64,000 nt of DNA. It comes from an uncultured Paracoccaceae bacterium. GTDB lineage: Bacteria > Pseudomonadota > Alphaproteobacteria > Rhodobacterales > Rhodobacteraceae. The stretch is taken from positions 1 to 64,000 of the forward strand of contig CALMJS010000022.1 in NCBI GenBank assembly GCA_937864535.1, read 5' to 3'. Numbering within the stretch: the first letter of the stretch is position 1; each line of letters begins with the position of its first letter. The notes under the pieces are model-generated. The model was given only the letters and a program-made list of their open reading frames with translations, did no database searches and had not been told where the DNA came from. Below, one piece after another: positions 3,083 to 22,458 of the stretch. A program made the translations under genes and the position numbers.

Positions 3083-3087
3083 CTTTC

Positions 3088-7031: not shown

Positions 7032-8135
7032 TTAATCGGTCTGTCTCAGCGACAGATTCAGACCGCTCTCGCGATCAAAAATATGCAGCCAGTCGGGATC
7101 GGGGCTCAGGCAGATACGGTCATCGGATCGGTCCAGCGCGTCATATTCCGCAGCACTGGCCACCGCCGTGACCGCAACGCCGTCCAAATCGGCGTGCAAA
7201 TAGACCTCGTGCCCCATAAATTCGACGTTGGTGATCCGGGCCGCCAGACCACGGTCCGACAGGCGCAGGTGCTGCGGGCGCACGCCCAGCACGGCCTGCT
7301 TTGGCAACACGGGCAGCCGCGCCATCAAATCCGCGTTCAGGTCGATGGCTTGTGCGCCGACGACAAACCGCGTGCCCTCAATCCGGCCGTCGATCAGGTT
7401 CATTTCCGGACTGCCGATAAAGCCCGCGACGAACAGGTTGGCAGGGCGATTGTACAGGTCCTTGGGCGTGGCGACCTGCATGATGTGACCGCCCTGCATC
7501 ACGCAGATCCGGTCGCCCATGGTCATCGCCTCGGTCTGATCGTGGGTCACATAGACGACCGTGGCAGGTTTGCCCTCGGCCCGCAGGCGGCGGTGCAAAT
7601 CGGTAATCCGCACCCGCATCGAGGCCCGTAATTTGGCATCGAGGTTCGACAAGGGTTCGTCAAACAGGAACACTTCGGGCTTTTTGATCAGGGCCCGCCC
7701 CAGTGCAACCCGCTGCGCCTGCCCGCCCGAGAGCTGTTTGGGCAACCGGTCCAAGAGCGGCTCGATCTCGAGGATCTTGGCGACCTCTTCGACGGCCTTT
7801 TGCCGCTCGGCCTTGGGCACACCCTGAAGAAAAAGACCGAACGACAGGTTCGTGCGCACCTTCATATGCGGATAGAGCGCGTAATTCTGGAACACCATCG
7901 CGATGCCGCGCTTGCCGGGGGGCAGATCGTTGACGATCCGCTCGCCGATCCGGACCTCGCCACCAGAGACCTCTTCGAGACCGGCAATCATCCGCAGCGT
8001 CGTGGATTTGGCGCAGCCGGACGGCCCAACCAGCACCATGAATTCCCCTTCGGCGACATCGAGGTTGATGCCATGCACGGCGCGAAACCCGTTTCCGTAG
8101 GTCTTTTCGAGCGTATTGAGTTGAAGACGTGCCAT
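7032..8135 (-). CDS. CUT1 sugar ABC transporter ATPase (MalK/UgpC family)
   Basis: The 367-residue protein has a MalK-type nucleotide-binding domain and a C-terminal TOBE regulatory region. Walker A reads GPSGCAKST, with Ala where most members have Gly; the ABC signature is LSGGQAQRVALGRA, Walker B VFLFDEPLSNLDAK, followed by the H-loop YVTHDQTEAM. It would energise the two permeases encoded just upstream. Whether the Ala substitution affects ATP turnover is unknown; the rest of the site is intact. Order in the operon is permease-permease-ATPase-binding protein-GH28-GH105. Confidence 0.92.
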   Translation of the reverse strand: MARLQLNTLEKTYGNGFRAVHGINLDVAEGEFMVLVGPSGCAKSTTLRMIAGLEEVSGGEVRIGERIVNDLPPGKRGIAMVFQNYALYPHMKVRTNLSFGLFLQGVPKAERQKAVEEVAKILEIEPLLDRLPKQLSGGQAQRVALGRALIKKPEVFLFDEPLSNLDAKLRASMRVRITDLHRRLRAEGKPATVVYVTHDQTEAMTMGDRICVMQGGHIMQVATPKDLYNRPANLFVAGFIGSPEMNLIDGRIEGTRFVVGAQAIDLNADLMARLPVLPKQAVLGVRPQHLRLSDRGLAARITNVEFMGHEVYLHADLDGVAVTAVASAAEYDALDRSDDRICLSPDPDWLHIFDRESGLNLSLRQTD

Positions 8136-8136
8136 A

Positions 8137-9024
8137 TTATCCCTTGATCCCCCCAGCAGAGATCCCCTCGATGAAGTATTTTTGTGCGGCGAAGAACACG
8201 ATCAGCGCAGGCAGTATGGTCAGCACCGACATCGCCAGAATGCGGTTCCAGGCAAAGGCTTCGGTCGTGTCGATGGACAGCTTGAGCGCCAGACTGACGG
8301 GGTATTTGTCCACGGAACTAACGTAGATCAGCGGCCCCAGAAAATCGTTCATGGTCCACATGAATTGGAACAGAGCGACCGAAATCAGTGCCGGAGCCAG
8401 CATCGGCACCACGATGAACAGCAGCGTTTGCCAGCTATTGGCGCCATCGACGCGGGCGGCCTCTTCCATGTCGGCGGGAATGGCCCGCAGGAACTGCACC
8501 AGCATAAAGACAAAGAACGCATCCCCCGCCAGTGCCGACGGCACCCAGAGCGGCAAATAGCTGTCCAGCCATCCCAGATCCCGAAACAGCAGGTATTGCG
8601 GAATGCGTGTCACCACATTGGGCAGCAGCAAAATCGCGATGACCGAGCCAAAGAACAACTTTTTCAGCGGGAAATCAAAGCGGGCAAAGCCATAGGCCAC
8701 CACCGTGCAGGAAATCGCGGTCCCGATTACCTTGGGCAGGATGATCTTGAAACTATTCAGGAAAAACGTGCCAAAGCTGAAGGGTGTCGAGGTTTTCCAG
8801 CCTTCGATATAGCCATCGAGCGTGGCGTTTTGCGGCCAGAACCCCGGATTGGCAAAGATTTCCGAATTGGTCTTGAACGAGGCGCCGATCAGCCAGATCA
8901 GCGGATAGAGCATCACCAGCCCCACCGAGATCAGCACCAGATAGCGCATCGCGGCACCCAGTCGGGCCTTTTGCCGGCGGCGTTTCGCCTGCACGCGGGC
9001 GAGTGTCAAAGTCGCATCTGTCAT
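8137..9024 (-). CDS. CUT1 sugar ABC transporter permease (MalG-like)
   Basis: The 295-residue inner-membrane protein has a basic N-terminus (KRRRQKAR), about six hydrophobic segments and the EAA-type coupling loop EEAARVDGANSWQTL. I place the start at ATG 9024, two bases after the upstream permease stop, with GGAG in front; the longer reading frame would run into the neighbour. It pairs with the MalF-like protein to form the channel of the probable oligogalacturonide importer. Confidence 0.9.
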   Translation of the reverse strand: MTDATLTLARVQAKRRRQKARLGAAMRYLVLISVGLVMLYPLIWLIGASFKTNSEIFANPGFWPQNATLDGYIEGWKTSTPFSFGTFFLNSFKIILPKVIGTAISCTVVAYGFARFDFPLKKLFFGSVIAILLLPNVVTRIPQYLLFRDLGWLDSYLPLWVPSALAGDAFFVFMLVQFLRAIPADMEEAARVDGANSWQTLLFIVVPMLAPALISVALFQFMWTMNDFLGPLIYVSSVDKYPVSLALKLSIDTTEAFAWNRILAMSVLTILPALIVFFAAQKYFIEGISAGGIKG

Positions 9025-9026
9025 GA

Positions 9027-9908
9027 TCAGCTCCGTTTGTCCCCGGCGTAGAACACCCATTTTTTCGACGACCAGAACGCGACCAGCGTCAGCACCATGA
9101 TGATCACGAACAACACCCATGCGATGGCACTGGCGTAGCCCATGTCGAACCGCTTGAACGCTTCGTCATAGATGTAGAGGGGCAAGAGATAGGACGATTT
9201 GAGAGGGCCGCCCTGCGTGATGATGTAGGGGCCATTAAACTCTTGGAACGCCTGCACCATCTGCATGATCAGGTTGAAAAAGATCACCGGCGTCAGCAGC
9301 GGGATGGTAATAAAGATAAAGGTATAAAACCGGGACGACCCATCAATGGCCGCCGCCTCGTAGAGCGATTTGTCAATCGACTGGAGCGCGGCCAGAAAAA
9401 TCACCATCGCAGAGCCGAACTGCCAGCAGCGCAGCAGGGTGATCGTGAACAGCGCGTTGGTCGGATCACCGAACCAGTTTACCGGCTCGCCGCCCAGCGC
9501 GACGATCGCCATATTCACCAGCCCTTCGGTGGCAAAGATATACCGCCAGAGTACCGCAATCGCGATCGACCCGCCGAGGATCGAAGGGACGTAGAACGCC
9601 GTGCGAAAGAAGTTAATGCCGCGCAGCCGGTAGTTCAGGATGTAGGCAATGAACAACGCAAAGGCGAGCTTGAGCGGTACCGTCGTAAACACATAGATCA
9701 GTGTCACCGTCAGCGATTTGCGAAACGTCCGGTCACTGGTGAACAGGTGTAGATAATTGTCCAGCCCGGACCAGCGCGGCGCGCTCATCAGGTTGTAGTC
9801 GGTAAAGCTGAGATAGAGCGAGCCGAGAAACGGAACCGCCGTAAACACCGCCAGACCGATGATATAGGGGGTCAGATAGGCCAACCCCAAAAACCGGCGC
9901 ATTTTCAT
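9027..9908 (-). CDS. CUT1 sugar ABC transporter permease (MalF-like)
   Basis: The product (293 residues from ATG 9908) begins MKMRRFLGLAYLTPYIIGLAVF, typical for a MalF-type permease, and carries the EAA loop LYEAAAIDGSSRFYTF. An in-frame TTG at 9947 would add 13 residues; ATG 9908 is preferred because it overlaps by ATGA the stop of a short upstream ORF that has a strong ribosome site. It is the first transporter gene of the leftward pectin operon, with a GntR-type operator 155 bases upstream. Confidence 0.87.
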   Translation of the reverse strand: MKMRRFLGLAYLTPYIIGLAVFTAVPFLGSLYLSFTDYNLMSAPRWSGLDNYLHLFTSDRTFRKSLTVTLIYVFTTVPLKLAFALFIAYILNYRLRGINFFRTAFYVPSILGGSIAIAVLWRYIFATEGLVNMAIVALGGEPVNWFGDPTNALFTITLLRCWQFGSAMVIFLAALQSIDKSLYEAAAIDGSSRFYTFIFITIPLLTPVIFFNLIMQMVQAFQEFNGPYIITQGGPLKSSYLLPLYIYDEAFKRFDMGYASAIAWVLFVIIMVLTLVAFWSSKKWVFYAGDKRS

Positions 9909-9955
9909 TCCTGTGCCCCTCGCATCTGCGGCGGGCACGGTTTGCAATTGTCCAT
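9905..9955 (-). CDS. Possible 16-residue leader peptide translationally coupled to the permease
   Basis: A short frame, MDNCKPCPPQMRGAQE, starts at ATG 9955 behind GGAGAGAGG and ends in TGA overlapping the permease ATG (ATGA). The permease start has only a weak site of its own, so ribosomes may load on the leader and reinitiate. The peptide has two cysteines and two consecutive prolines. It may have no function beyond coupling; conservation is untested. Confidence 0.4.
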   Translation of the reverse strand: MDNCKPCPPQMRGAQE

Positions 9956-10062
9956 GTTACCTCTCTCCCCGTCTGGCCGCACGCCGGATGACGCCAACCA
10001 AGTCCCCGACCCAATCCTGTTGGGCGCTCTGAAAATCGCATTAATCATTGCGATTCTCGATG

Positions 10063-10073
10063 TTGTATGACAA
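10063..10073 (+). promoter_or_regulatory. GntR/FadR-type operator between importer operon and araC gene
   Basis: TTGTATGACAA, identical to the site before kdgD, lies in the divergent promoter region between the leftward transporter-hydrolase operon and the rightward AraC gene, so it could act on either or both. Confidence 0.6.
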
Positions 10074-10122
10074 GTTATCGCAAATTGTGTGGTGATTTGA
10101 ATTCACGAACGAGAACGAAAAG

Positions 10123-11049
10123 ATGGACAAAATCGAAGGTAGCGTGTTGGACAGGGTTCCCCCCGGTGCCCTGTCGCTGACCTTGACCCGCAGCACGATC
10201 AAAATGGTCCATTCCCGCACATGGAGCGTCGACAAGGCCAATCAGGTCTGGGACATTCTGATCGCGCTACAGGGGCGCGGCGAATACCTGATCAACGGTC
10301 AGCGGCTGTCGCTGTCACCGGGGCAGGCGCTGCTCATTCCGCCGCATACCCGGTTTCAGGGTTGGACCGAGAGCGAGGAACCCTACCTCGGGATTGCGCA
10401 GCATTTCACGCTCAAGATTTTTGGCGATCACGACCTGTTGGACCTGATGGAGCTATCACCTGTCGCGGACCTGGCGCCTTGGCCGGTGATGGAGCCCTTG
10501 GCATGGCATTTCCGCCAAAGTGCGCCGCCCGGATCAATCACCATGCCGCAAACCGCCCAGTTCATGGTACTGCTGAACGCCTATATCAATGCGGCCTTTC
10601 GCGGGTGGAAACCGGCCGCGGCAGGCCGGATCGAGGGCGCGGCGGGCATCGACGTTGCGGTGATGCAGGCCGCCTCGCGGATCAGCGGGGCCCCGCTGGA
10701 CCCGGACATCGCGCAGACCGCGCTGGCAGAGGCACCCTATAACCCCGACTATTTTCAGCGCGAATTTCAACGGCGTATCGGTCGAACGCCGCGCAAATAT
10801 CAGGAATTCTGCCGGATGGAGCGGGCCATGCACCTGCTAGAGAGCGGACATAATGTCGGGGCAACCGCCGCACTGGTCGGCTACAGCGATCCCTACTATT
10901 TTTCGCGGATGTTCAAACGCACGATGGGCCGCAGCCCGCGCGAGCACTTGGAACGCATCAGCCTAAGCCGCGATGGTAGGCTGATGCACTTTGACGAAGA
11001 CGCCCAAGAGGCCCTGATCGCGGCCGGGATCACCCCCAGCCGCGGGTAG
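10123..11049 (+). CDS. AraC-family transcriptional regulator
   Basis: The 308-residue protein has an N-terminal cupin-like sensor (GRGEYLINGQRLSLSPGQALLIPPHTRF pattern around residues 47-75) and a C-terminal double helix-turn-helix ending in VGYSDPYYFSRMFKRTMGRSPREH. It is divergent from the oligogalacturonide importer operon and just before kduD, so it likely senses a pectin-derived sugar and activates import. It therefore forms a second layer of control beside the GntR protein. Start ATG 10123 follows GAACGAAAAG, a weak ribosome site. Confidence 0.88.
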   Translation: MDKIEGSVLDRVPPGALSLTLTRSTIKMVHSRTWSVDKANQVWDILIALQGRGEYLINGQRLSLSPGQALLIPPHTRFQGWTESEEPYLGIAQHFTLKIFGDHDLLDLMELSPVADLAPWPVMEPLAWHFRQSAPPGSITMPQTAQFMVLLNAYINAAFRGWKPAAAGRIEGAAGIDVAVMQAASRISGAPLDPDIAQTALAEAPYNPDYFQREFQRRIGRTPRKYQEFCRMERAMHLLESGHNVGATAALVGYSDPYYFSRMFKRTMGRSPREHLERISLSRDGRLMHFDEDAQEALIAAGITPSRG

Positions 11050-11790
11050 TTAGCGGGCCAGCCAGCCGCCATCCACGTTGATCACCGCGCCATGCACATA
11101 GTCCGACGCCGGTGCCGACAGGAAAACCGCGGTATCGGCGATATCCTCGGCCCGGCCCCAGCGTCCGGCGGGAATCCGGTCGAGGATCGCCTTGTTCCGG
11201 TCGGGATCGGCGCGCAGGGCCTCGGTGTTGTTGGTTTCGATATAGCCGGGGGCAATGGCGTTGACGTTAATACCCTTGGCCGCCCATTCGTTGGCCAGCA
11301 GCTTGGTCAGCCCGGCAACGGCATGTTTCGAGGCGGTATAGGAGGGCACGCGAATGCCACCCTGAAACGACAAGAGCGAAGCGATATTGACCACCTTGCC
11401 GGTTTTGCCCTCGGCCAACAGCGCCTTGGCAAAGGCCTGACAGGTAAAGAACAGTGCCTTGGCATTGACATCCATCACCGCGTCCCAGTCCTCTTCGGTG
11501 AAATCGGTGCTGTCATTGCGGCGGATAATCCCCGCGTTATTGACCAAAATGTCGTAGCCAGCCCCGGCAAACAGCCCGGTCGCGGCCATCGGATCGGCAA
11601 AGTCCACCAAAACACTGTCGGCGGTGCTGCCAGCAGTACGGATCGCCGCGACAGTTTCGTCACACCTGCGCCGTCCGGCACAATGGACCTCGGCCCCGGC
11701 CCCGGCAAGGGCCACAGCTATCGCCTGCCCGATCCCGGTATTGGCGCCAGTCACCAGCGCCTTGCGCCCAGTCAAAGAAAAACGGTTCAT
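11050..11790 (-). CDS. kduD: 2-dehydro-3-deoxy-D-gluconate 5-dehydrogenase (EC 1.1.1.127)
   Basis: KduD reduces 3-deoxy-D-glycero-2,5-hexodiulosonate to 2-keto-3-deoxygluconate with NADH. This 246-residue classical short-chain dehydrogenase shows TGANTGIG (14-21), NNAG (84-87), and the active-site Tyr151/Lys155 in YTASK. Assignment over other SDRs rests on the coupled kduI gene: the KduD ATG at 11790 overlaps the kduI stop (ATGA). Enzymes that process the product further (KdgK, KdgA) are not in the window. Confidence 0.9.
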   Translation of the reverse strand: MNRFSLTGRKALVTGANTGIGQAIAVALAGAGAEVHCAGRRRCDETVAAIRTAGSTADSVLVDFADPMAATGLFAGAGYDILVNNAGIIRRNDSTDFTEEDWDAVMDVNAKALFFTCQAFAKALLAEGKTGKVVNIASLLSFQGGIRVPSYTASKHAVAGLTKLLANEWAAKGINVNAIAPGYIETNNTEALRADPDRNKAILDRIPAGRWGRAEDIADTAVFLSAPASDYVHGAVINVDGGWLAR

Positions 11791-12611
11791 TTCAGGTCCG
11801 CCGGCTGTACAAAATCCATATCCGTGTAGTCGATATTATCCCCGGCCATCGCCCAGATAAACGTATAGCTGCCGATCCCCGCGCCGGCATGGATCGACCA
11901 CGACGGCGAAATCGCGGCCTCTTCGTTGGCGACGATCAGGTGGCGGGTCTCGGTCGGTTCGCCCATCAGGTGGAGCACGCGCGAGGCGTCATCCATGCCC
12001 CAATAGAGATAGGCCTCCATCCGGCGATCGTGGATATGTGCGGGCATCGTATTCCAGACCGAACCATCCTCCAGCGCGGTATAGCCCAGCACCAACTGAC
12101 AGCTCTCCATCACCAAGGGGTGGATAAACTGGTTGATCGTCCGCTTGTTCGAGGTTTCTACCGCGCCCAATTTGACCTGCTTGCTCTCGGCAATGGTCAC
12201 CAGCCGGGAGGGGCATTTGCGATGCGCGGGGGCAGAGGTCAGATAGAACCGCCCCGCCCCGTCAAAGGTCACCGGACCCGACCCCATCCCCAGATAGAGG
12301 ACATCGCCGCGCTGCATGGTGTAGGTCTGGCCCTCGGCGCTGACGGTGCCGGTATCGCCGATGTTCACCACACCCAGTTCCCGACGATCGAGGAAAGACG
12401 GCGTCTTGGTTTCAGCGACCTGATCCAGCACCAAGGCCGCCCCGTCAGGCACCACACCGCCGATCACAAAGCGGTCGTAATGCGTGTAAACGAGGCGGAT
12501 TTCCCCAGCGGCAAACATGCCCTGCGCCAGAAAATGGCGGCGCAGCGTGTCGGTATCCATCCCCTTGGCATGGTCGGGATGAATGGCGTGGCGGGTTTCT
12601 ACGGTGAGCAT
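11787..12611 (-). CDS. kduI: 5-dehydro-4-deoxy-D-glucuronate isomerase (EC 5.3.1.17)
   Basis: KduI isomerises 4-deoxy-L-threo-5-hexosulose uronate, which forms when GH105 releases unsaturated galacturonate, to the KduD substrate. The 274-residue cupin has the zinc-binding stretch HIHDRRMEAYLYW at 192-204 (His192, His194, Glu199) and a later histidine in SIHAGAG, as in E. coli KduI. ATG 12611 follows GGAGGATTTGAG, so the longer upstream frame is not used. Two GntR-type sites lie 33-64 bases upstream. Confidence 0.93.
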   Translation of the reverse strand: MLTVETRHAIHPDHAKGMDTDTLRRHFLAQGMFAAGEIRLVYTHYDRFVIGGVVPDGAALVLDQVAETKTPSFLDRRELGVVNIGDTGTVSAEGQTYTMQRGDVLYLGMGSGPVTFDGAGRFYLTSAPAHRKCPSRLVTIAESKQVKLGAVETSNKRTINQFIHPLVMESCQLVLGYTALEDGSVWNTMPAHIHDRRMEAYLYWGMDDASRVLHLMGEPTETRHLIVANEEAAISPSWSIHAGAGIGSYTFIWAMAGDNIDYTDMDFVQPADLK

Positions 12612-12643
12612 CTCAAATCCTCCGGTCGCGCCGCCGTGGCGCG

Positions 12644-12675
12644 TTATCATACAAATTGGCACACTTGTATGGCAT
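12644..12675. promoter_or_regulatory. Pair of GntR/FadR-type sites upstream of kduI
   Basis: Two imperfect copies face opposite ways: TTGTATGATAA on the minus strand (12644-12654, 10 of 11 matching the kdgD site) and TTGTATGGCAT on the plus strand (12665-12675, 9 of 11). They lie between the kduI start and the end of the gntR gene, where the kduID promoter must be. Confidence 0.5.
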
Positions 12676-12695
12676 CACAACCCAGAGTCAACCTC

Positions 12696-13439
12696 TCAGG
12701 ATCGAAGCAACGCCCGATAGCGGGTTTGGCTGCCCTTGAGATGTTGACGCATCGCGGCACGCGCGCCCGCCTCGTCCCCGGACAGGATTGCCGTGACGAT
12801 CCTGTCGTGTTCCTGATCGATCATCGCGTAATAATCCCGCGCGACCTCTTTGCCCTGCTCGCCCATCATCGCGGTGCGCGGGATCACATTCGACCCCAGC
12901 ATCGTCAGAAATTCACGGAAACGGGGATTGTTGGTGGCATCGGCGATGGCCAGATGCAACCCGAGATCCGCCGCGGCGGTGTAATTCGAGGCAGGGATCT
13001 CTCGCGCTGCCTCGATGATCCGCTCTTCTTGCGAGGGAGAGCGCCGGATCGCCGCCAGTCCGGCGGATTCGACCTCGACCGCGGTGCGCAGTTCCAGCAG
13101 TTCGATGATCGAGGACAGTCGCGCGTAATCAACATTCTGGAACGGGACCGTCACCGGTTTGGCCGGTTCGATCACAAACACGCCAGACCCTTGGCGCGGC
13201 TCGACCAGACCATCGGCCTTGAGCGCGGCAATCGCTTCGCGCACAACGGTTCGGCTGACACCGTATTCCACGGTCAACATCGCTTCGCTCGGCAAACGAT
13301 CGCCCGGCGTATAGTCGCCTTTTTCGATTTGCGACTTCAGTGAATCTCTTACGGCAGCGACGAGGGTGGTGCTGCGGGCTGTGGGGGCGGGAATGGCCGG
13401 TCTCCTGACAATAGTCTGCGGCCATAGTAGCTTGGCCAC
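12696..13439 (-). CDS. GntR-family (FadR/FCD subfamily) transcriptional regulator of uronate genes
   Basis: The 247-residue protein has an N-terminal winged helix (LPSEAMLTVEYGVSRTVVREAI, then GLVEPRQGSGVFV) and an all-helical FCD effector domain with the usual metal-site histidines (GLHLAIAD, EHDRIV). The start used is GTG 13439; the ribosome site is weak and a slightly different start is possible. Its position beside kduID and the shared TTGT-N3-ACAA sites ahead of kdgD, araC/importer, kduI and itself suggest a UxuR/ExuR/KdgR-like repressor relieved by a uronate intermediate. Confidence 0.87.
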   Translation of the reverse strand: MAKLLWPQTIVRRPAIPAPTARSTTLVAAVRDSLKSQIEKGDYTPGDRLPSEAMLTVEYGVSRTVVREAIAALKADGLVEPRQGSGVFVIEPAKPVTVPFQNVDYARLSSIIELLELRTAVEVESAGLAAIRRSPSQEERIIEAAREIPASNYTAAADLGLHLAIADATNNPRFREFLTMLGSNVIPRTAMMGEQGKEVARDYYAMIDQEHDRIVTAILSGDEAGARAAMRQHLKGSQTRYRALLRS

Positions 13440-13476: not shown

Positions 13477-14106
13477 TTACCACAGCAGCCATCGCGTACC
13501 CCAGCGCACCGTTGCCAGTGTGACAACGCAGATCGCCAGACCATACCACGGCACGTAGAACATCGGATTGTCCTGTGTGCAGAACAGCGAATAGCCTGCT
13601 GCCGCCCCTGCACCAGCGGCCAAGCCCACGAATGTCGCCGTCAGTCGCGGGCGCACCGATGCCCCGCGCGACGCCAGCCGAAGGCCGATGATCGCGGGAA
13701 CGACCGACAACAGGATGATCAACCCGATGCATTCGCCCAAGTAGAATGGCCTTGCCTCGGCGAACCAGAGATCCGCTGGACGGCCAAGCATCCCGAACAC
13801 CGCTGTGACAACGACAGGCACCATCAGCGTCCAGCCCCATGACAATCGCAGGACCCGGCCCGGTCGCGCCAATCGGGTCACCGCCCACCATGCAAAGCCC
13901 ATCACCGCCAATGGCAGCAGGGTTTTGACCGCGATCAGCGGATTGGCCATCTGCGATATCAAATCCGGCCGCACACCAAACGCCAGCAGAAACAGCGCCG
14001 CCGGCACCGCCACCGCCAAGCCAAAGCGTTCCGACAACGCCCTCGGGTTCAACACCTCTGCCTGCGGGGATCGGGAAAGGCTGTTGATCAGATCATCGGT
14101 CCGCAT
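13477..14106 (-). CDS. nrsF: NrsF-like anti-sigma factor (DUF1109), inner membrane
   Basis: NrsF proteins hold the ECF factor SigF inactive at the membrane. This 209-residue protein has about six hydrophobic segments after a short cytoplasmic N-terminus. Cys126 (LGECIG) and Cys176 (LFCTQD) have the 50-residue spacing of the cysteine pair described as functionally important in Caulobacter NrsF. Its start overlaps sigF by 14 bases, so the pair is made together. It probably senses copper or another metal/oxidant and releases SigF to switch on the bufferin operon. Confidence 0.87.
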   Translation of the reverse strand: MRTDDLINSLSRSPQAEVLNPRALSERFGLAVAVPAALFLLAFGVRPDLISQMANPLIAVKTLLPLAVMGFAWWAVTRLARPGRVLRLSWGWTLMVPVVVTAVFGMLGRPADLWFAEARPFYLGECIGLIILLSVVPAIIGLRLASRGASVRPRLTATFVGLAAGAGAAAGYSLFCTQDNPMFYVPWYGLAICVVTLATVRWGTRWLLW

Positions 14107-14659
14107 CGCGCTGCCCCTTTGCTAACACTTCCAATTTCCTGAGCGCACGGTGCAGGCTGACCCGCAACGTCCCCTCCGAGACTTTCATCTGCGCCGCCAC
14201 CTCTGCGGGGCTTTGCTCTTGTAGTTTGATCGCCGTCACGATCCGGGCCGAGCGCGCATCGAGGCCGCTCATCAACTGCGCCACCTCTGCCACCGCCTCT
14301 GCCCCGGCCCCATGGGCCTGCGCGGTTTCGTCCTCCAGAAACTCTGCCATCTCCTCGATCGGCAGATGGGTCGCGACACCGCGACGCCGGAACGCATCGA
14401 TCACCTTGTAGCGGGTGATCGCGAACAGCCACGGCCGCAGCGGCTGATCGGGGGACCAAGTATGTCGTTTGGCGTGAATGGCCAGCAGAACCTCTTGCAC
14501 GATGTCCTCATGCTGATCGGGCGGCAGGTTACGGCCCCGCGCGCGGACAATCCCCCGCAGGACAGGCGTAATCGCGTGCAAAAGACGGGCGTAGGCACGC
14601 CCATCCCCCGCAATCGCCGATCGCATCAGCCCGGCCCAGAGGTCTTCTGTTTCAGTCAT
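14093..14659 (-). CDS. sigF: ECF sigma factor, SigF-like
   Basis: The 188-residue protein has region 2 (QHEDIVQEVLLAIH, then RPWLFAITRYKVIDAFRRR) and region 4 (LQEQSPAEVAAQMKVSEGTLRVSLHRALRKL), without a C-terminal extension. It is cotranscribed with nrsF and divergent from bufA, the arrangement of the Caulobacter SigF regulon. ATG 14659 has GAAGGG upstream. The proposed promoter at 14672-14696 would give only a very short 5' leader, so either the start or the transcription start may be slightly different. Confidence 0.9.
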   Translation of the reverse strand: MTETEDLWAGLMRSAIAGDGRAYARLLHAITPVLRGIVRARGRNLPPDQHEDIVQEVLLAIHAKRHTWSPDQPLRPWLFAITRYKVIDAFRRRGVATHLPIEEMAEFLEDETAQAHGAGAEAVAEVAQLMSGLDARSARIVTAIKLQEQSPAEVAAQMKVSEGTLRVSLHRALRKLEVLAKGQRDADR

Positions 14660-14671
14660 CGTACCCTTCAG

Positions 14672-14696
14672 TTCGCTGGACCAGCAGGTTTGTTAC
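14672..14696 (-). promoter_or_regulatory. Predicted SigF promoter for sigF-nrsF (GTAAC-N16-CGAA)
   Basis: On the minus strand GTAAC (14696-14692) and CGAA (14675-14672) are separated by 16 bases. These are the -35 and -10 elements reported for Caulobacter SigF, and the same pair occurs ahead of bufA on the opposite strand, implying autoregulation. Confidence 0.6.
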
Positions 14697-14774
14697 AGGC
14701 TGCAGCCAAATATTCCGAATTTCGGGGAAAATTCACGGAAATTTTCACAACCCGATCACCAGCGCGTGAACGGC

Positions 14775-14800
14775 GTAACGCTGGCGACCCGGCCCGCGAA
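14775..14800 (+). promoter_or_regulatory. Predicted SigF promoter for bufABCD (GTAAC-N17-CGAA)
   Basis: GTAAC at 14775-14779 and CGAA at 14797-14800 are 17 bases apart, one more than in the divergent copy. Transcription would start near 14807, leaving a leader of about 45 bases before bufA with its GGAG site at 14840-14843. Confidence 0.6.
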
Positions 14801-14852
14801 TTGACCAATGAGGACGCAAACAGCGCCTCTTACACACATGGAGATTTTGAAA

Positions 14853-15131
14853 ATGTCGATCCTGTCCAAAACCCTGCCGCTGACCGCGAGCCTTGCAACC
14901 GCTCTGACCCTCGCTGCGGCTGGCGTGGCCCATGCCGATGGCGAAATGGAAAAGTGCTATGGCGTTTCGATGGCTGGCCAGAACGATTGCGCCGCCGGAC
15001 CGGGCACCACCTGCGCAGGCACCTCGACGATGGATTATCAGGGCAACGCCTGGAAATATGTCCCGGCTGGCACCTGCGCCACGATCGAAACCCCGAACGG
15101 CATGGGGTCGCTGGAGCCGATCGCAGGCTAA
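14853..15131 (+). CDS. bufA: Bufferin precursor peptide (DUF2282), copper-buffering RiPP
   Basis: This 92-residue peptide has a Sec signal (cleavage after VAHA, residue 28) and a mature part with four cysteines, Cys35 (EKCYGVS), Cys46 (NDCAAG), Cys54 (TTCAGT) and Cys75 (GTCATI). That is the bufferin/DUF2282 pattern. Known bufferins are modified at cysteines by a DUF692 iron oxygenase (BufB) and bind copper in the periplasm. ATG 14853 is chosen because GGAG lies ten bases upstream; an ATG at 14838 has no such site. A strong hairpin follows the gene, consistent with higher expression than bufBCD. Confidence 0.9.
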
Positions 15132-15142
15132 CCCGCCCCAAA

Positions 15143-15162
15143 GGGGGCGCCCCAGCGCCCCC
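15143..15162 (+). other. Intercistronic hairpin between bufA and bufB
   Basis: A perfect 8-bp GC stem (GGGGGCGC / GCGCCCCC) with a CCCA loop lies 12 bases after the bufA stop. There is no T run, so it is more likely a 3'-end stabiliser or partial attenuator that raises precursor peptide over its modifying enzymes than a full terminator. Confidence 0.65.
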
Positions 15163-15192
15163 CAACCCATCCTTTGCCGTCAGAGGTCCGCC

Positions 15193-16047
15193 ATGTCCCA
15201 ATTGCCCGCACAGGCCGGTATCGGTTTCAAACCGCAGCACTATCGCGGCTTGCTCGATACCAAACCATCGCTTGGGTTTCTCGAAGTCCATGCAGAGAAT
15301 TACATGGGGGCTGGGGGGCCGCCCCATGCGATGCTGACCGCGCTGCGGGCGGATTACGCACTGTCTGTGCATGGCGTGGGCCTGTCGATCGGCGGCCCTG
15401 CCCCCTTGGACACGGACCATCTGGCGCGGCTGCGCACCCTGCTGGACCGCTATGAACCGCAGAGTTTTTCCGAGCACCTTGCTTGGTCGTCACATGGCGA
15501 TGCCTATCTGAACGATCTGCTGCCCCTACCCTATACCGAACACACCCTGCAGACCGTCTGCGATCACGTCGATCAGACCCAAGAGGCGCTGGGTCGGCAA
15601 ATGCTGCTGGAAAACCCGTCCACCTATGTGTTGTTCGACACCTCGACCATTCCCGAAACCGAATTTCTGGCGGAAATCGCGCGGCGCACGGGCTGCGGTC
15701 TCTTGCTCGACGTCAACAATGTATTCGTGTCCTGTAGCAATCACCGCACCGGCGCGCGGGCCTATCTGGATCAATTTCCCCTCGATGCCGTTGGCGAGGT
15801 GCATCTGGGGGGCCACGAGGCAGAGGACCTGCCCGGAGGTCCCCTGCTGATCGACAGTCACGGCCGCGAGGTCGCAGAGCCCGTCTGGACCCTGTTCCAA
15901 GAGGTTATCGCGAAAACCGGCCCGCTCCCGACGTTGATCGAATGGGACAATGACGTGCCTGACCTGCCCGTCCTCTTGGCCGAGGCGGATCGTGCGCAAA
16001 CCATTCTCACCGCAAATCCAAAGGGGCAGCTCTATGCAGCCCAGTAA
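15193..16047 (+). CDS. bufB: DUF692 multinuclear non-heme iron oxygenase (MNIO), bufferin maturase
   Basis: The 284-residue TIM-barrel protein shows DUF692/MbnB family motifs: EVHAENYMG (31-39), [10 protein letters not shown] (58-67), FSEHLAW (92-98), LENPSTY (139-145), [11 protein letters not shown] (171-181), EVHLGGH (202-208), DSHG (221-224) and IEWDND (249-254). These contain the His/Asp/Glu ligands of the iron cluster. The enzyme is expected to modify BufA cysteines in the cytoplasm. ATG 15193 follows AGAGG. Its end overlaps bufC by 14 bases. Confidence 0.92.
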
Positions 16048-16804
16048 CCTGCCCGACGATCACACCGCCGCCATGACCCGCGCCCTGCTGGGCGGCGGCA
16101 TCCCGCGCGGGGTCACCGTAAAGCGGGGCCAGGACCGTGCCCGGCGCTTTGCCGTCTATCGCAACAACGTCATGCATTCGCTGACGCAGGCTCTGGCCAC
16201 GCGGTTTCCGGTAATTGAACGACTGGTCGGGACCGAGTTTTTTACGGCGATGGCACGGGTCTATATCGAACAGCACCCGCCGCGCTCGCCGCGCCTGTTT
16301 GAGTGGGGCGACACGTTCGCGGAGTTTTTGCGCGGGTTTGCCCCCGCCGCCAGCCTACCCTACGCGGCCGACGTGGCGCGGATCGAATATGCGCGCGGTG
16401 TGGCCTATCATTCTGCCGACCTGACCGCCCTGAGCGACGCCGAACTATCTGCTGTTGCGGGCTGGGCGGATCGGGCGCGGCTGGTTCTGCATCCTTGCGT
16501 CCAGATGATCCGGTCCAACTATGCCATCGTTGACATCTGGCAGGGCAACCAGCCCGACCAAGCCCCGCGCCCCATCGCGCATCGCGCCCAAACGGCGCTG
16601 GTCCTGCGCACGCCGCACCATGCGATTCCGGTCCTGTCCTTGACCGAGGCCGAGGCCGCCATGCTGGGGGCTATTCTGGCTGGAATGCCCCTGCTCGAGG
16701 CGATGATGGCCGCGCAGCGGGTTGACCCTGCACATTCCCCCAACACGCTGATTGCCCTGTTGCACAGCCACCAAACCATTATTTCCGCTCAGGAGGTTTC
16801 ATGA
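16034..16804 (+). CDS. bufC: DUF2063 partner protein of the bufferin maturase
   Basis: DUF2063 (HvfC/BufC-type) proteins accompany DUF692 oxygenases and are thought to recognise the precursor peptide. This one is 256 residues, with the family's N-terminal [29 protein letters not shown] block near residues 36-65. ATG 16034 lies within the bufB end (14-base overlap) and the stop overlaps the bufD start (ATGA), so all three are translationally linked. Confidence 0.88.
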
Positions 16805-17238
16805 TTTCGCAGCTTCGCCGTCTCGACGCGCTCCTGTCGCAGATGCCATGGGACATCGCAGCCCTGGCGCTGCGCCTGTGTCCGGCGTGGGCGTTTTTCG
16901 CCTCTGGCCTGACCAAGGTTGATGCGACCGGGATCAAGGACAGCACGTGGTTCCTGTTCGAACATGAATATGCCCTGCCACTGATTCCCTCGGCGCTGGC
17001 GGCGGTGATGGCGACCTGCGCGGAATTGACCCTGCCGATCCTGTTGGCATTGGGGTTCGCCACCCGGCTCTCGGCCTTGGGTCTGTTGATGATGACGTTG
17101 GTCATCCAGACCTTTGTCTACCCCGGCGCATGGCCGACGCATGGCCTCTGGGCGGCGGCCTTCCTCGGGATCATTGCGGGCGGCCCCGGACGGCTCTCGG
17201 TCGATCGGATTGTGCTGGGACCACAGCCTAGCAAATAG
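16801..17238 (+). CDS. bufD: DoxX-family membrane protein of the bufferin operon
   Basis: The 145-residue product has four hydrophobic helices and the DoxX pattern ([38 protein letters not shown]). DoxX proteins are the usual last member of bufferin operons; their role is not settled. ATG 16801 follows AGGAGG and overlaps the bufC stop. The operon probably ends here, although no clear terminator is seen in the 108-base gap to the next gene. Confidence 0.85.
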
Positions 17239-17346: not shown

Positions 17347-18108
17347 ATGTTTTCCCTGGCAGGCAAACGGGCATTGATCGTCGGCGTAGCAAACGAGAAC
17401 TCCATCGCATGGGGCTGCGCCAAGGCGCTCAAGGCACAGGGCGCGGACATCGTGATGACATGGCTCAACGCCAAGGCCGAACCGCATGTGCGACCACTGG
17501 CCGAACAGATCGGCGCGACGCTGATGGGGCCGCTCGATGTCAGCGTGCCCGGGCAGGCGGAAGCCATGTTCGACCTGATTGCCGAAACTTGGGGGCGGCT
17601 GGATGTGCTGCTGCATTCCATCGCCTATGCCCCGCGCGACGATCTACACGGACGGGTGATTGACTGTTCCGCCGCAGGCTTTGGGCAGGCGATGGATATC
17701 TCCGTCCATTCGTTTTTGCGGATGATCCACATGGCAGAGCCGTTGATGCGCGACGGTGGCACCTGCATGACCGTGTCGTTCATGGGCTCGGGGCGCGTCG
17801 TGGATAACTACAACATGATGGGTCCGGTCAAGGCCGCGCTCGATTGCGCCGTGCGCTATGCCGCCGCGGAACTGGGCGGCGCAGGTATCCGTGTCCATGC
17901 CCTGTCGCCCGGACCGATGGCCACCCGAGCCGCCAGTGGCTTGGCCCATTTCGATGCCCTGCTGTCCAAAGCCGCAGAGCGCGCCCCGACCCATCAGTTG
18001 ACGACACTGAACGATGTGGGCGCGATGGCTGCGTTTCTGGCCTCGGACGAGGCACGCAATCTGACCGGCGGCATCCACGCCATCGACGGTGGCTATTCGA
18101 TTACCTGA
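17347..18108 (+). CDS. FabI-like enoyl-[acyl-carrier-protein] reductase / SDR
   Basis: This 253-residue protein starts MFSLAGKRALIVGVANENSIAWG, the FabI form of the nucleotide-binding loop, and has the FabI-type active site NYNMMGPVKAAL with Tyr and Lys seven residues apart. FabI reduces trans-2-enoyl-ACP in fatty-acid elongation. It stands alone between bufferin and RND genes, so it may be an accessory FabI homologue rather than the housekeeping copy. ATG 17347 has AAAGGAGGAG upstream. Another SDR activity is possible. Confidence 0.78.
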   Translation: MFSLAGKRALIVGVANENSIAWGCAKALKAQGADIVMTWLNAKAEPHVRPLAEQIGATLMGPLDVSVPGQAEAMFDLIAETWGRLDVLLHSIAYAPRDDLHGRVIDCSAAGFGQAMDISVHSFLRMIHMAEPLMRDGGTCMTVSFMGSGRVVDNYNMMGPVKAALDCAVRYAAAELGGAGIRVHALSPGPMATRAASGLAHFDALLSKAAERAPTHQLTTLNDVGAMAAFLASDEARNLTGGIHAIDGGYSIT

Positions 18109-18177
18109 CAAAACCGCAACGGAAATTCTGCGCCGCAGCGTTTCATCGAAAACCCCTTCTCTGAACGTGGATTTCCG

Positions 18178-19350
18178 ATGAAACATTTCCGGCACGCCGT
18201 CGCTATTTGCAGCGCAATTTTTCTGGGCACTGCCCTTCAGGCTCAAATGGGTCCTCCTATGGGCATGGGCGTCGCCTCCTCTGGCCCGACCGAGGTCGGC
18301 GTGATGACCGTGGCGGAAACCCAAGTGCCCTATGCCGTGACCCTGCCCGGTCGGGCGGTCGCGACGGAACAAACCGACATCCGGCCCCGGGTCAGCGGGA
18401 TGATTTCCGAAATCGCCTATGTCCCCGGTCAGGCCGTCGCGGTCGGCGACCTGCTGTTTCGTATCGATGCCGCCAGTTATGAGGCCGCCCTCGCCAGCGC
18501 CGAGGCGACCCTGAGCAGCGCCCAAGCCGCGCTGGCGGCGGCACAGCGGACGGTGGATCGCTATGACCAACTGGGCGATGTGGTGACCTCTTCGGATCGC
18601 GACACGGCGACGACGGCCCTGATGCAGGCCACCGCCACGGTCAAGAGCGCGGAGGCCGCGCTGCAAACGGCGCAGCTCAATCTGGATTGGACCGAGGTGC
18701 GCAGCCCAATTGCCGGGGTCGTTGATCTGCCGCAGGTCTCTGTCGGGGCACTGGTCACCGCGAACCAGACGGACGCGCTGACCACGGTCACCCAATCCGA
18801 TCCGATCTACGTCGATGTGGCCGAGAGCGCGGCGCGCATCGCGCGGGTGCGTGACCAGATCGACAGCGGTTCACTGACGCCCGACGCGGGGCTGACGGCC
18901 ACTCTGGCTCTCGAGAGCGGCACCGCCTACGATAAGATCGGCCAATTGGTCAGCCCCGGCCTGTCCGTCTCGACCTCGACCGGCGCGGTCGACTTTAGGT
19001 TCGAATTTGATAATTCTGACCACAGAATCATGCCCGGACAGTTCCTGCGTGTTGATATTGTGATAGCTCATCAAACGGCGTTTCTTGTGCCGCAGCGTGC
19101 AGGTACCCGGCAATCGGACGGCAGTTTGACGGTCTTCATCGCCGAAAACGGGATAGCCAAACAGGTGACACTGACCACCAAGGGGAGCTATCAGAATGCG
19201 TGGATCGTCACCAGCGGACTAGGCGATGGCGATCAGGTGATTCTGGACGGGCTGACCAGTTTGCGCGATGGCGCAGAGGTGACCACCGTCCCTGTGACCA
19301 TCGATGCGGCAGGCGTCGTTCAGGACGTCACCCCGGCAGCGGGGAACTGA
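18178..19350 (+). CDS. RND efflux periplasmic adaptor (AcrA/MexA family)
   Basis: The 390-residue protein has an N-terminal signal sequence (ending near ALQAQ), a lipoyl/barrel-sandwich part (VPGQAVAVGDLLFRID), a helical hairpin with repeated AEATLSSAQAAL-type heptads (about residues 100-165), and a beta-barrel domain. Right after the signal comes a short Met-rich stretch, QMGPPMGMG. It links the inner-membrane pump encoded next to an outer-membrane channel that is not in the window. The gene lies four bases before the RND gene. Confidence 0.92.
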   Translation: MKHFRHAVAICSAIFLGTALQAQMGPPMGMGVASSGPTEVGVMTVAETQVPYAVTLPGRAVATEQTDIRPRVSGMISEIAYVPGQAVAVGDLLFRIDAASYEAALASAEATLSSAQAALAAAQRTVDRYDQLGDVVTSSDRDTATTALMQATATVKSAEAALQTAQLNLDWTEVRSPIAGVVDLPQVSVGALVTANQTDALTTVTQSDPIYVDVAESAARIARVRDQIDSGSLTPDAGLTATLALESGTAYDKIGQLVSPGLSVSTSTGAVDFRFEFDNSDHRIMPGQFLRVDIVIAHQTAFLVPQRAGTRQSDGSLTVFIAENGIAKQVTLTTKGSYQNAWIVTSGLGDGDQVILDGLTSLRDGAEVTTVPVTIDAAGVVQDVTPAAGN

Positions 19351-19353
19351 TCC

Positions 19354-22300
19354 ATGGCACGCTTCTTTATCCATCGGCCGATTTTTGCGTGGGTCCTCGC
19401 GATTGTCACCATGTTGGCGGGCGCGTTTTCCTACACCCAGTTGCCAGTGTCACAATATCCCGACATCGCCCCGACAACGATCCGCGTTTCTGCGAATTAC
19501 TCCGGCGCGACGGCCCAGGCGGTGCAAAACTCGGTCACTGCGGTGCTGGAAAACGCCATGACCGGCCTCGATGGCCTGCTCTATATGGAGAGCACCTCGC
19601 GCGAAGGCTCGGCCTCGGTGTCGCTGACCTTTGACGGATCGGTCGACCCTGTGGATGCCCAAAACGCGATCCAGTCCAAGGTCTCGCAGGTCGAAGGGCA
19701 ACTGCCGGACCGGGTCCAAAGCTCTGGCGTCAATGTCTCGCGCTCGTCCTCGTCGATCCTGATGATCGGCGCGATCGTCTCTGCCGATGGCCGTTATTCG
19801 ACGCTGGAACTGGGCGATATCCTCAGCAACCAGATTTCTGGCGCGGTTCAGCGGACCGAAGGCGTGGGCGGCATCAGCAGCTTTGGCTCGGGCTATGCGA
19901 TGCGGATTTGGCTCGACCCGCTGTCTCTGGCGCAGTTTCAGCTCACTCCGGCGGATGTGACCTCTGCGGTTCAGGCCCAGAACACAACGGTCTCGGTCGG
20001 CTCACTTGGCTCGCTTCCGGTGGTTGCGGGCCAGCAGTTCACCGCGACAATCACGGCCCAGAGCCAGCTCTCCTCGGTCGAAGAGTTCGAAAACATCCTG
20101 CTCAAGACCGATTCCGACGGGTCCAAGGTCACACTGGCCGATGTCGCCACCGTTGAAATCGGCCAGGAAACCTATGGCGGCGACGCGCTGTTCAACGGGG
20201 CGAATGCCGCCGGTTTTGGCGTCAACCTCGCGACCGGGGCGAATGCCGTCGACACCGCGCAGGCCGTTCGGGCGACCTTGGCAGACCTCGAACCCTCGCT
20301 GCCTGATGGGGTCGAGGTGCAGTTTGCCTATGACACCTCGCCCTTCGTGGAACTGTCCATCGAAAAAGTCTATCACACCCTGATCGAGGCTATCGCGCTG
20401 GTTTTCATCGTCATTCTGGTGTTCTTGCAGAAATGGCGGGCAACGATCATCCCGATTATCGCCGTTCCGGTGGTTCTGGCGGGCACCTTTGCTGTGCTCG
20501 CGGTTCTGGGGTTTTCGATCAACACGCTGACGATGTTTGCGATGGTGCTGGCCATCGGCCTGTTGGTCGATGACGCGATCGTTGTCGTTGAAAACGTCGA
20601 ACGCGTCATGGCCGAAGAAGGGCTGTCCCCTCTCGACGCGACGGTCAAGAGCATGGGCCAGATCACCGGCGCCCTGATCGGCATCGCGCTGGTTCTGTCG
20701 GCGGTATTTCTGCCGATGGCGTTTATGGGCGGATCAACCGGCATCATTTACCGGCAGTTTTCGGTCACGATCATCTCTGCGATGGTGCTCTCCGCTCTGG
20801 TGGCGCTGATCCTGACGCCGGCGCTCTGCGCGACGATGCTGAGGGGCGGCCATGGGCAAACCGTGGCGGCAGGGCGCTGGTTCAACACGGCCTTTGGCGC
20901 GATGACCAACCGGTATCAATCCGCTGTCACCCGGATCACCCGGCGGCCTATTGCCATGGCGGGGGCGCTGATAATCGTCCTTGGCTCGGCCTATGGCCTC
21001 TACACCCAGTTGCCATCGTCGTTCCTGCCCGAAGAGGATCAGGGCGTGATGATGGTGATGGTCAGCCTGTCCGAAGGGTCCACCACCCCGCAAACCGAAC
21101 AGGTTGTCGAACAGGTACAGGATTATTTGCTGACCGAGGAATCCGAGGCTGTTGCCAGCACCTTTGCCACACTCGGGTTTGGGTTCGGCGGTTCCGGCCA
21201 GAATTCGGCGATGATTTTCGTCAAATTGCGCGATTTTGCCGAACGGCAGGATGACAGCCTGTCCGCCTCTGCCGTCGTGGCCCGTGCCACGGCCAGGTTT
21301 TCGACCCTGCGCGCGGGCCGCGTGATGTTCATGCAGCCCCCCGCCATCCAGGGACTGGGCAATACCAACGGGTTTTCCATGTATCTGGTGGACTACGGCG
21401 GCAACGGCCTCGATGCCCTGCGCACCGCCGCTGCGGATCTGGAAACCTTGGCCGGTGCCGATGGTCGTCTGTCCAATATCCGCGTGTCAGGCACCGAAAA
21501 CGAGGCGGTTCTGCGCCTGATCATCGACCAGGAAAAAGCCGAGAGCTTTGGCGTGAGCGTCAGTTCGGTGAATGCGATCCTCTCGACCATCTTTAACGGG
21601 ACGACCGTCAATGACTTTGACCTCAACGGGTCCCTGCGCCCGGTGATCGTGCAGGCGGACGCGGCCTACCGGATGCAGACGGAAAACATCGACGACTGGT
21701 TCGCTGTCAACACTCAGGGCGAAGTCGTCAGCTTTGCCTCTTTCGTCACCACCGAATGGGTATCCGTGCCGCCGCAACTGGCCCGCATGGACGGGGCGGA
21801 TGCGATCAGCATTTCCGGCGCTCCGGCAGATGGCACCTCCTCGGGCGAGGCGATAGCCGTGATGGAGGAGTTGGCCAGTTCGCTGGACGGCGGCTATGGT
21901 GCAGCGTGGACCGGGCTCAGCTATCAGGAACAACAGTCCGGATCGCAGGCGCCCTATCTCTACGCGCTGGCCGTGCTGGTGGTGTTTCTCTGCCTCGCCG
22001 CGCTCTACGAGAGCTGGACCATCCCGTTCTCTGTCATGCTGGCGGTTCCGGTCGGGGTGTTTGGCGCGTTGGCCTTTGCTTGGCTCTTTGACCAGTCGAA
22101 TGACGTCTATTTCAAGGTCGGCATCCTGACGACCATCGGCCTTGCAGCGAAAAACGCGATCCTGATCGTCGAATTTGCCAAAGAGCTAGAGGCAACCGGC
22201 CGCACAGCCGTTCAGGCGGCAATCGAGGCGGCCAAACTGCGGCTACGTCCGATCCTGATGACCTCGCTGGCCTTTATGCTGGGGGTGCTGCCCCTCGCGC

Positions 22301-22458
22301 GGGCAACAGGTGCGGGGGCGCAGGCCCAGAACGCCATCGGGTTTGGCGTGCTGGGCGGGATGTTCGCCGCGACCTTTATCGGCATATTCATGGTCCCGGC
22401 GTTCTATGTGCTGGTCCGCAAACTGACCGGTCGTCGCGGCCAAGCCGCCCAAGGCTAA
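19354..22458 (+). CDS. RND multidrug efflux permease (AcrB/HAE1 family)
   Basis: At 1034 residues this has the full AcrB length: N-terminal MARFFIHRPIFAWVLAIV, two large periplasmic loops, twelve predicted helices, and the proton-relay aspartate pair in GLLVDDAIVVVEN. It belongs to the HAE1 drug/solvent-exporting group rather than to the heavy-metal CusA group, judging by the intact VDDA motif and general sequence. No TetR-type regulator or outer-membrane factor is adjacent, so regulation is not apparent. Confidence 0.95.
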   Translation: MARFFIHRPIFAWVLAIVTMLAGAFSYTQLPVSQYPDIAPTTIRVSANYSGATAQAVQNSVTAVLENAMTGLDGLLYMESTSREGSASVSLTFDGSVDPVDAQNAIQSKVSQVEGQLPDRVQSSGVNVSRSSSSILMIGAIVSADGRYSTLELGDILSNQISGAVQRTEGVGGISSFGSGYAMRIWLDPLSLAQFQLTPADVTSAVQAQNTTVSVGSLGSLPVVAGQQFTATITAQSQLSSVEEFENILLKTDSDGSKVTLADVATVEIGQETYGGDALFNGANAAGFGVNLATGANAVDTAQAVRATLADLEPSLPDGVEVQFAYDTSPFVELSIEKVYHTLIEAIALVFIVILVFLQKWRATIIPIIAVPVVLAGTFAVLAVLGFSINTLTMFAMVLAIGLLVDDAIVVVENVERVMAEEGLSPLDATVKSMGQITGALIGIALVLSAVFLPMAFMGGSTGIIYRQFSVTIISAMVLSALVALILTPALCATMLRGGHGQTVAAGRWFNTAFGAMTNRYQSAVTRITRRPIAMAGALIIVLGSAYGLYTQLPSSFLPEEDQGVMMVMVSLSEGSTTPQTEQVVEQVQDYLLTEESEAVASTFATLGFGFGGSGQNSAMIFVKLRDFAERQDDSLSASAVVARATARFSTLRAGRVMFMQPPAIQGLGNTNGFSMYLVDYGGNGLDALRTAAADLETLAGADGRLSNIRVSGTENEAVLRLIIDQEKAESFGVSVSSVNAILSTIFNGTTVNDFDLNGSLRPVIVQADAAYRMQTENIDDWFAVNTQGEVVSFASFVTTEWVSVPPQLARMDGADAISISGAPADGTSSGEAIAVMEELASSLDGGYGAAWTGLSYQEQQSGSQAPYLYALAVLVVFLCLAALYESWTIPFSVMLAVPVGVFGALAFAWLFDQSNDVYFKVGILTTIGLAAKNAILIVEFAKELEATGRTAVQAAIEAAKLRLRPILMTSLAFMLGVLPLARATGAGAQAQNAIGFGVLGGMFAATFIGIFMVPAFYVLVRKLTGRRGQAAQG

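Follow-up and report, generated by a model that had tools for sequence, protein, structure and literature searches.

Gene clusters of the Buf1 type have been described as a bufA-bufB-bufC-doxX core, accompanied in part of them by genes for a sigma factor and NrsF, both of which are reported as components (PMC12452194). In Caulobacter, the SigF system has been studied with lacZ fusions and cysteine mutants (PMC3511200), and copper was reported to induce the SigF regulon and a sigF mutant (sigF::Tn5) to be copper-sensitive (PMC8224329). For Sinorhizobium meliloti, rpoE7-ecfR7 and its four divergent genes have likewise been described as orthologs of the Caulobacter genes (PMC6180224). Herein, we analyze a bufferin locus within a 64,000-nucleotide stretch of DNA (hereafter the window) from an uncultured Paracoccaceae bacterium (assembly GCA_937864535.1, contig CALMJS010000022.1, positions 1 to 64,000). 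We read it, with a probability of roughly 0.8, as a Buf1 operon under an ECF16-type sigma/anti-sigma pair (ECF, extracytoplasmic function), the bufA promoter and the message each adding a further control. The locus combines the complete gene set, conserved cysteines, SigF-type promoters before both transcripts, a clade-wide palindrome and a conserved hairpin.

Gene set and SigF-type promoters

The six genes lie where the initial annotation had placed them, and their assignments were confirmed by family searches. On the reverse strand, nrsF (13477-14106) encodes a DUF1109 membrane anti-sigma factor of 209 amino acids and sigF (14093-14659) an ECF sigma factor of 188 amino acids. On the forward strand stand bufA (14853-15131; DUF2282 precursor, 92 amino acids), bufB (15193-16047; MNIO (DUF692) bufferin maturase, 284 amino acids), bufC (16034-16804; DUF2063 partner protein, 256 amino acids) and doxX (16801-17238; DoxX-family membrane protein, 145 amino acids). 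All products exceeded the curated Pfam cut-offs: BufA reached 92.8 bits for DUF2282 (PF10048; cut-off 22.4), BufB 357.1 for MbnB_TglH_ChrH (25), BufC 91.8 for DUF2063 (27.2), with a match covering the DUF2063 part alone (residues 12-98 of the scanned stretch), DoxX 64.3 (23.6) and NrsF 118.1 (PF06532; 26.8), and sigma-70 regions 2 and 4 were also above their cut-offs in SigF. BufB additionally surpassed the NCBIfam bufferin maturase equivalog NF050167 (392 bits vs 310) and has sequence relatives among PDB structures, including the MNIO 3bww and MbnB. The HvfX equivalog stayed below its cut-off for doxX (54.1 of 80), as did the HvfC equivalog (62.7 of 142). Since bufB and bufC overlap by 14 nucleotides, bufC and doxX by 4, and only 61 nucleotides separate bufA from bufB, it is plausible that bufA-bufB-bufC-doxX forms a single operon; nrsF and sigF overlap by 14 nucleotides, and 193 nucleotides lie between sigF and bufA. 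At an E-value of 0.001, the genome of origin has a single gene each for DUF692, DUF2282 and NrsF.

A search for GTAAC-N15..18-CGAA found two matches in the window, one before each transcript: GTAAC-N16-CGAA before sigF (14672-14696, reverse strand) and GTAAC-N17-CGAA before bufA (14775-14800, forward strand). For the 64-kb window 0.63 matches were expected, and 10 of 100 shuffled versions contained at least two; both matches fall inside the 193-nucleotide gap between sigF and bufA, for which 0.0019 would be expected at the genome-wide rate. The promoters printed for S. meliloti RpoE7 fit GTAAC-N16/17-CGAA (PMC6180224).

For comparison we used the best 80 of 570 confirmed loci, chosen by BufB similarity. 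sigF stands near the operon in 55 of the 80, divergently in 48 and co-directionally in 7, and was not found within the flanks examined in the other 25. The motif precedes bufA in 16 of the 48 divergent, 6 of the 7 co-directional and 6 of the 25 sigF-free loci, and precedes sigF in 23 of the 48 divergent ones, compared with 3 matches in 643,996 bp of flanking DNA. These results bear out the initial annotation in describing a complete Buf1 locus divergent from a local SigF/NrsF pair, and SigF-type promoters lie on both sides. They do not uphold its further claim that the locus extends a system known from Caulobacter only: the layout has been published for Caulobacter and S. meliloti, and sigF is near in more than half of the related loci (55/80). 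An inverted repeat in the same gap, GAAAATT-N6-AATTTTC (14727-14746), was set aside as private to the window, with no match in the 20 relatives' promoter cores compared.

Outside the locus, we rejected a wider SigF regulon in the genome of origin, because its 37 motif matches do not exceed the 40 of the reversed control. Of 30 sites examined among the 37, only the two window sites adjoin genes of this system; others, such as those before what we take to be an accC-like gene and a transaldolase-like gene, are treated as background. Given this lack of genome-wide enrichment, SigF may here serve just its own two transcripts.

It could be argued that oxidative or hypochlorous stress is the primary signal, with NrsF sensing redox state, and that copper plays only an indirect part, since ECF16 relatives are reported to respond to hydrogen peroxide (PMC3420878) or hypochlorous acid (PMC8315932) and to share methionine sulfoxide reductase genes as targets (PMC8315932). 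We find this doubtful, because the operon belongs among those for copper chelators. Moreover, a gene pair in the genome of origin, which we presume to be msrPQ-like, carries no SigF motif upstream. Finally, the copper induction and copper sensitivity reported for the Caulobacter regulon and its sigF::Tn5 mutant (PMC8224329) argue in the same direction.

A palindrome at the bufA promoter and a hairpin in the message

Comparison of the stretch between the sigF and bufA promoters revealed a palindrome with the consensus TCACG-N4-CGTGA. Its copy in the window, TCACC-AGCG-CGTGA (TCACCAGCGCGTGA; 14756-14769), has one mismatch, lies 5 nucleotides upstream of the bufA -35 element and is a candidate operator. 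In the promoter regions of 81 loci, the window included, the palindrome is exact in 14 and has one mismatch in 19; the 643,206 bp of flanks contain no exact copy and 21 copies that differ at one position at most. Scoring in an anchored form (at most two mismatches, 4-6 nucleotides between palindrome and GTAAC) covered 30 promoters from the window's clade (32 loci including the window, two of which were omitted for want of a GTAAC), and 27 of these carried the palindrome. Elsewhere it was found in 1 of 22 sigF-side promoters, in 1 of 36 promoters of other loci (49 loci, 13 without GTAAC omitted) and at none of the 58 other GTAAC sites of the clade loci.

The palindrome is kept at bufA in five loci in which sigF lies downstream (L006, L016, L019, L025 and L027), but not in a sixth (L024), and the Tabrizicola locus L015, with no sigF within the fetched flanks, has retained the bufA promoter, the palindrome and the sigF-side promoter motif. 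Besides L024, the palindrome is missing from L013, and L009 and L010 carry an exact palindrome with no GTAAC at such spacing.

Because the loci in which the palindrome was counted are also those in which it was discovered, the only separate look is a search of 394 genomes of the family for the exact composite TCACG-N4-CGTGA-N5-GTAAC, which gave 7 matches in 6 genomes, compared with 2 for the reversed pattern. This strict search misses the window, whose copy has one mismatch; one of the genomes with matches has both of its site sequences in common with L017 and L026 and could be a genome already sampled, hence not independent. Six of the seven composites precede bufA. The seventh continues as GTAAC-N17-CGAA and precedes a DoxX gene with no bufA or bufB match in the 3 kb examined, which points to doxX as a putative SigF target outside bufferin operons. 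Judged from sequence, the distribution of the palindrome suggests that a second regulator acts at the bufA promoter.

The palindrome might instead be an extended recognition element of the SigF-RNA polymerase, that is, this clade's upstream extension of the -35, rather than an operator. Its distance to the -35 is fixed at 4-6 nucleotides, and no other regulator gene is common to the clade: beyond the six known genes, no family recurs in more than 4 of 29 neighborhoods, based on rough gene calls. Yet the same sigma factor's own sigF-side promoters carry the palindrome in just 1 of 22 cases, and inverted repeats are typical of dimeric regulators; we therefore consider the extended element unlikely and favor an operator.

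Two further explanations of the palindrome were tried and rejected. CenR of Rhodobacter sphaeroides recognizes a direct repeat, TGA-N8-TGA (PMC9275681), whereas the palindrome is an inverted TCA-N8-TGA. A genome-wide regulon was discarded as well, as the flanking genes have no common theme; in the genome of origin, TCAC-N5-CGTGA gave 14 strand matches against 6 for the control, with full palindromes counted on both strands. An exact TCACG-N4-CGTGA also lies about 40 nucleotides upstream of a small lipoprotein-like gene, in the same stretch present on two contigs (G000:C8:36227 and G000:C24:36361), maybe an assembly duplicate. The motif is absent from the text of the literature searched, in which a motif shown only in a figure would escape notice.

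Downstream of the promoter, the bufA-bufB gap contains a hairpin on the forward strand (15143-15162) with an 8-bp stem, a 4-nucleotide loop and no T-run (z -2.96). A perfect stem of 8 or more pairs stands in the bufA-bufB gap of 66 of the 77 loci, window included, in which this gap measures 20-140 nucleotides. Such stems were found in 11 of 76 control segments upstream of bufA, in 3, 7 and 9 of 77 coding segments, and in 25 of 76 other same-strand gaps of the same loci and the window (Fisher p 1.5e-11). With dinucleotide composition controlled for, 47 of 77 bufA-bufB gaps vs 16 of 76 control gaps fell below z -1.64. In a second sample of 58 loci, of which 6 were skipped for gap length or gene order and whose genomes may be shared with the first sample, the hairpin was present in 27 of 41 alphaproteobacterial loci.

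Covariation was scored in Rhizobiales rows only, the Rhodobacterales alignment being too ragged. In 16 Rhizobiales hairpins, hand-picked from the 77, some poorly aligned and most with the two outer pairs unpaired, 6 of 11 pairs change on both sides, and the score of 0.147 compares with 0.073 in shuffles (1 of 500 as high). Since T-rich tails follow only 11 of the 68 stems with 7 or more pairs, and the hairpin of the window did not appear in the terminator-scan output, most bufA-bufB hairpins are not classic terminators. A lone Rfam match below threshold (23.4 of 34 bits) was taken as chance. The hairpin may act in message stability or in partial termination favoring bufA.

Could the hairpin be a leftover terminator or a chance fold without function? 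GC-rich genomes fold readily, and stems of at least 8 pairs occur in a third of the other same-strand spacers (25/76). Nevertheless, the excess in bufA-bufB gaps over these controls, both in stems and in z, and the two-sided changes at 6 of 11 pairs in the 16 chosen rows make this improbable, and we retain the reading of a functional element in the message. As far as the main text of PMC12452194 was searched, it mentions neither the hairpin nor the palindrome, and searches of further papers gave no account of the hairpin either. Since both elements probably add to the control of the locus, the picture of SigF/NrsF regulation given by the initial annotation is incomplete.

Distribution, descent and neighboring genes

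DUF2282 occurs in 53 of 101 relatives and in 31 of 150 genomes sampled across the phylum (own genome counted in both), and within the genus BufB is present in 3 of 7 genomes and NrsF in 2 of 7, own included. In a BufB tree of 112 rows, the window falls into a set of 37 rows (support 100/98), mostly Rhodobacterales, and two congeners (G001 and G004) fall outside this set. sigF is near in 31 of the 36 other members; of the five without it, three are on cut contigs, one has a short flank and one is the Tabrizicola locus mentioned above. In a second Rhodobacterales set sigF is near in only 1 of 20, with mostly shorter flanks (1.5 kb, against mostly 4 kb in the other clade). BufB relatives were also found on 314 plasmid records (E up to 1e-60), 59 at 60-80% identity and 255 lower. 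Both gene loss and gene transfer are consistent with this distribution. A near-identical locus with the same promoter core is shared by a Pararhodobacter genome and a Novosphingobium contig (branches 0.019 and 0.033), which reflects either a recent transfer or a mislabelled genome. Several Rhizobium loci (L033-L050) seem to carry two DUF2282 genes in tandem, with starts about 300 nucleotides apart; tandem bufferin precursors have been reported (PMC12452194).

Work based on antiSMASH proposed that a DUF692 cluster on an extrachromosomal element of Paracoccus marcusii CP157 belongs to the bacteriocins (PMC8273931). A bacteriocin product is highly improbable here, given that BufB surpasses the bufferin maturase equivalog, BufA has the four Buf1 cysteines, and the 29 clade loci have only the six known genes in common.

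Downstream of doxX (17347-22458) lie genes for an enoyl-ACP reductase, FabI (above the PRK07533 equivalog), a membrane-fusion protein and a resistance-nodulation-division (RND) pump. fabI was rejected as an operon member, as it starts 108 nucleotides beyond doxX and belongs to a separate family; none of the 80 relatives has it beside the operon, and the two matches found (L032 and L049; 26-27% identity) sit on the other strand. The FabI of the window is an extra copy, with best matches of 39-41% identity in the rest of its own genome and six congeners, and together with the efflux pump it may form a biocide-tolerance set. On the other side, the region 964-13439 holds a pectin/uronate-type set (GH28, GH88, KduI, a short-chain dehydrogenase/reductase, an ATP-binding cassette sugar transporter and a GntR regulator), and it looks accessory because a close GntR relative was found in only 1 of 6 congeners (62%). 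Farther away, a RuBisCO large-chain-type protein, probably RuBisCO-like (38505-39803), is encoded near a MOFRL/DUF4147 gene (42134-43609), which we take to be of the glycerate-kinase type, and a tryptophan-halogenase family protein (45190-46689) adjoins a GH4 enzyme.

Proposed model and comparison with known systems

The four cysteines of BufA named by the initial annotation (35, 46, 54 and 75) are kept in all 81 aligned rows, i.e., the window and the 80 loci, and the N-terminus resembles a signal peptide by eye (Lys6, a hydrophobic stretch and an AHA-D boundary). In Buf1, the central cysteines are reported to be the modified ones and the outer two to form a disulphide (PMC12452194). By this rule, C46 and C54 of BufA would bear thiooxazoles and C35 would pair with C75.

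In NrsF, C126 and C176 are kept in 52 of 52 rows, with a third cysteine, C193, which the initial annotation did not name, in 2 of 52 (window counted in both). The AlphaFold model (predicted local distance difference test score 92.2) has six long helices and places C126 within a long helix (120-146), with C176 on the loop that joins helix 153-173 to helix 181-208; neither structure search (best E 0.52) nor sequence search of the PDB gave a relative of NrsF. The initial annotation correctly identified this cysteine pair, but its proposal that the pair senses directly appears too simple in view of published mutants. In Caulobacter, both cysteines are needed to keep SigF quiet, yet single mutants still respond, and the authors exclude an intramolecular bond (PMC3511200). 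In Bradyrhizobium OsrA, C179 is required for the hydrogen peroxide response and C129 possibly for sigma-factor binding (PMC3420878). The modelled positions of C126 and C176 would agree with this division of labor. In DoxX, both C27 and C73 are private cysteines, present in a single row of the 71 aligned.

Based on these comparisons, we propose that NrsF responds to copper in the periplasm or to some other thiol-active stress, probably via its periplasmic C176, and thereby releases SigF, which would then transcribe both sigF-nrsF and bufABC-doxX. The palindrome, centered about -45 from a start predicted near 14807, would bind a second protein that brings another signal to bufA only, and the hairpin would keep the bufA message above that of the enzyme part. 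In the cytosol, BufB-BufC would convert Cys46 and Cys54 of BufA to thiooxazoles; Sec would export the peptide, C35 and C75 would pair, and the product would chelate periplasmic copper. Copper induction, thiooxazole formation and sensing by NrsF are carried over in this model from the related systems.

Several observations weigh against our reading. The NCBIfam NrsF equivalog NF042994 stayed far below its cut-off (49.3 of 300 bits), so that NrsF appears as a family member by Pfam and not as a proven equivalog of the curated NrsF, and sigF fell slightly below that of PRK12512 (191.9 of 198 bits). The strict SigF motif is absent before bufA in 32 and before sigF in 25 of the 48 divergent loci, and, as noted, it is not enriched in the genome of origin. 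The palindrome is missing from 3 of the 30 clade promoters, and a further 2 of the 32 loci have no scorable GTAAC; taken alone, its copy in the window is no more than chance (1 found vs 3.21 expected), and the clade shares no other regulator gene. Outside Alphaproteobacteria, few loci have the hairpin (2 of 11 in the second sample), and T-rich tails seldom follow the stems. Finally, fusions of S. meliloti rpoE7 and its target were reported not to respond to hydrogen peroxide, cadmium or chromate (PMC6180224).

More tentatively, and with somewhat less than even confidence, we suggest that the Rhodobacterales bufferin promoter is a two-input gate. SigF/NrsF would report periplasmic thiol stress, and a putative dimeric regulator at TCACG-N4-CGTGA a second signal, perhaps copper, while the hairpin would ensure that much more precursor than enzyme is made. 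As the composite precedes a lone doxX in one genome, co-regulation of DoxX may reach outside the operon. If true, such a gate would account for a copper-specific peptide being driven by a sigma factor whose inducers in relatives are chromate, cadmium and oxidants. ECF16 systems answer differing stresses in each host and here control a copper chelator, and the palindrome offers a concrete handle on this point. The hairpin, in turn, is a simple candidate for making a stoichiometric metal-binding product in excess over its modifying enzyme.

Related operons occur more widely: the Gig operons of Cupriavidus and Legionella are reported to be induced by copper and gold (PMC8224329, PMC5413113), and for that of Legionella another regulation has been proposed, with RpoS possibly involved. 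EcfF-OsrA of Bradyrhizobium and the ECF16 pair of Brucella resemble the window in their ECF16 sigma factor and DUF1109 anti-sigma factor with Cys 129/179 (PMC3420878, PMC8315932) but, unlike the window, are described as controlling methionine sulfoxide reductases under oxidative or chlorine stress and not a bufferin operon. RpoE7-EcfR7 with SMb20527-SMb20530 of S. meliloti is closer, with a divergent arrangement and an autoregulated ECF16 sigma factor (PMC6180224). The palindrome was not seen at the Rhizobiales promoters sampled (which do not include S. meliloti), apart from the 1 of 36 other loci within two mismatches. In Caulobacter vibrioides/crescentus, SigF-NrsF and CC3254-CC3257 (bufferin 1) comprise the same six families (DUF1109, sigma factor, DUF2282, DUF692, DUF2063 and DoxX), with a six-helix NrsF bearing two conserved cysteines and similar sigF and CC3254 promoters (PMC3511200). 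Caulobacter is reported to possess another operon of the DUF2282-DUF692-DUF2063 type and to have a YedY/MsrP-like gene among the regulon members, whereas the genome of origin has one bufferin locus and an msrPQ-like pair without a SigF motif. Compared with these systems, the protein set of the window is ordinary, one more member of a well-described family; what is new lies in the regulation of this clade, a variant marked by the conserved palindrome and hairpin.

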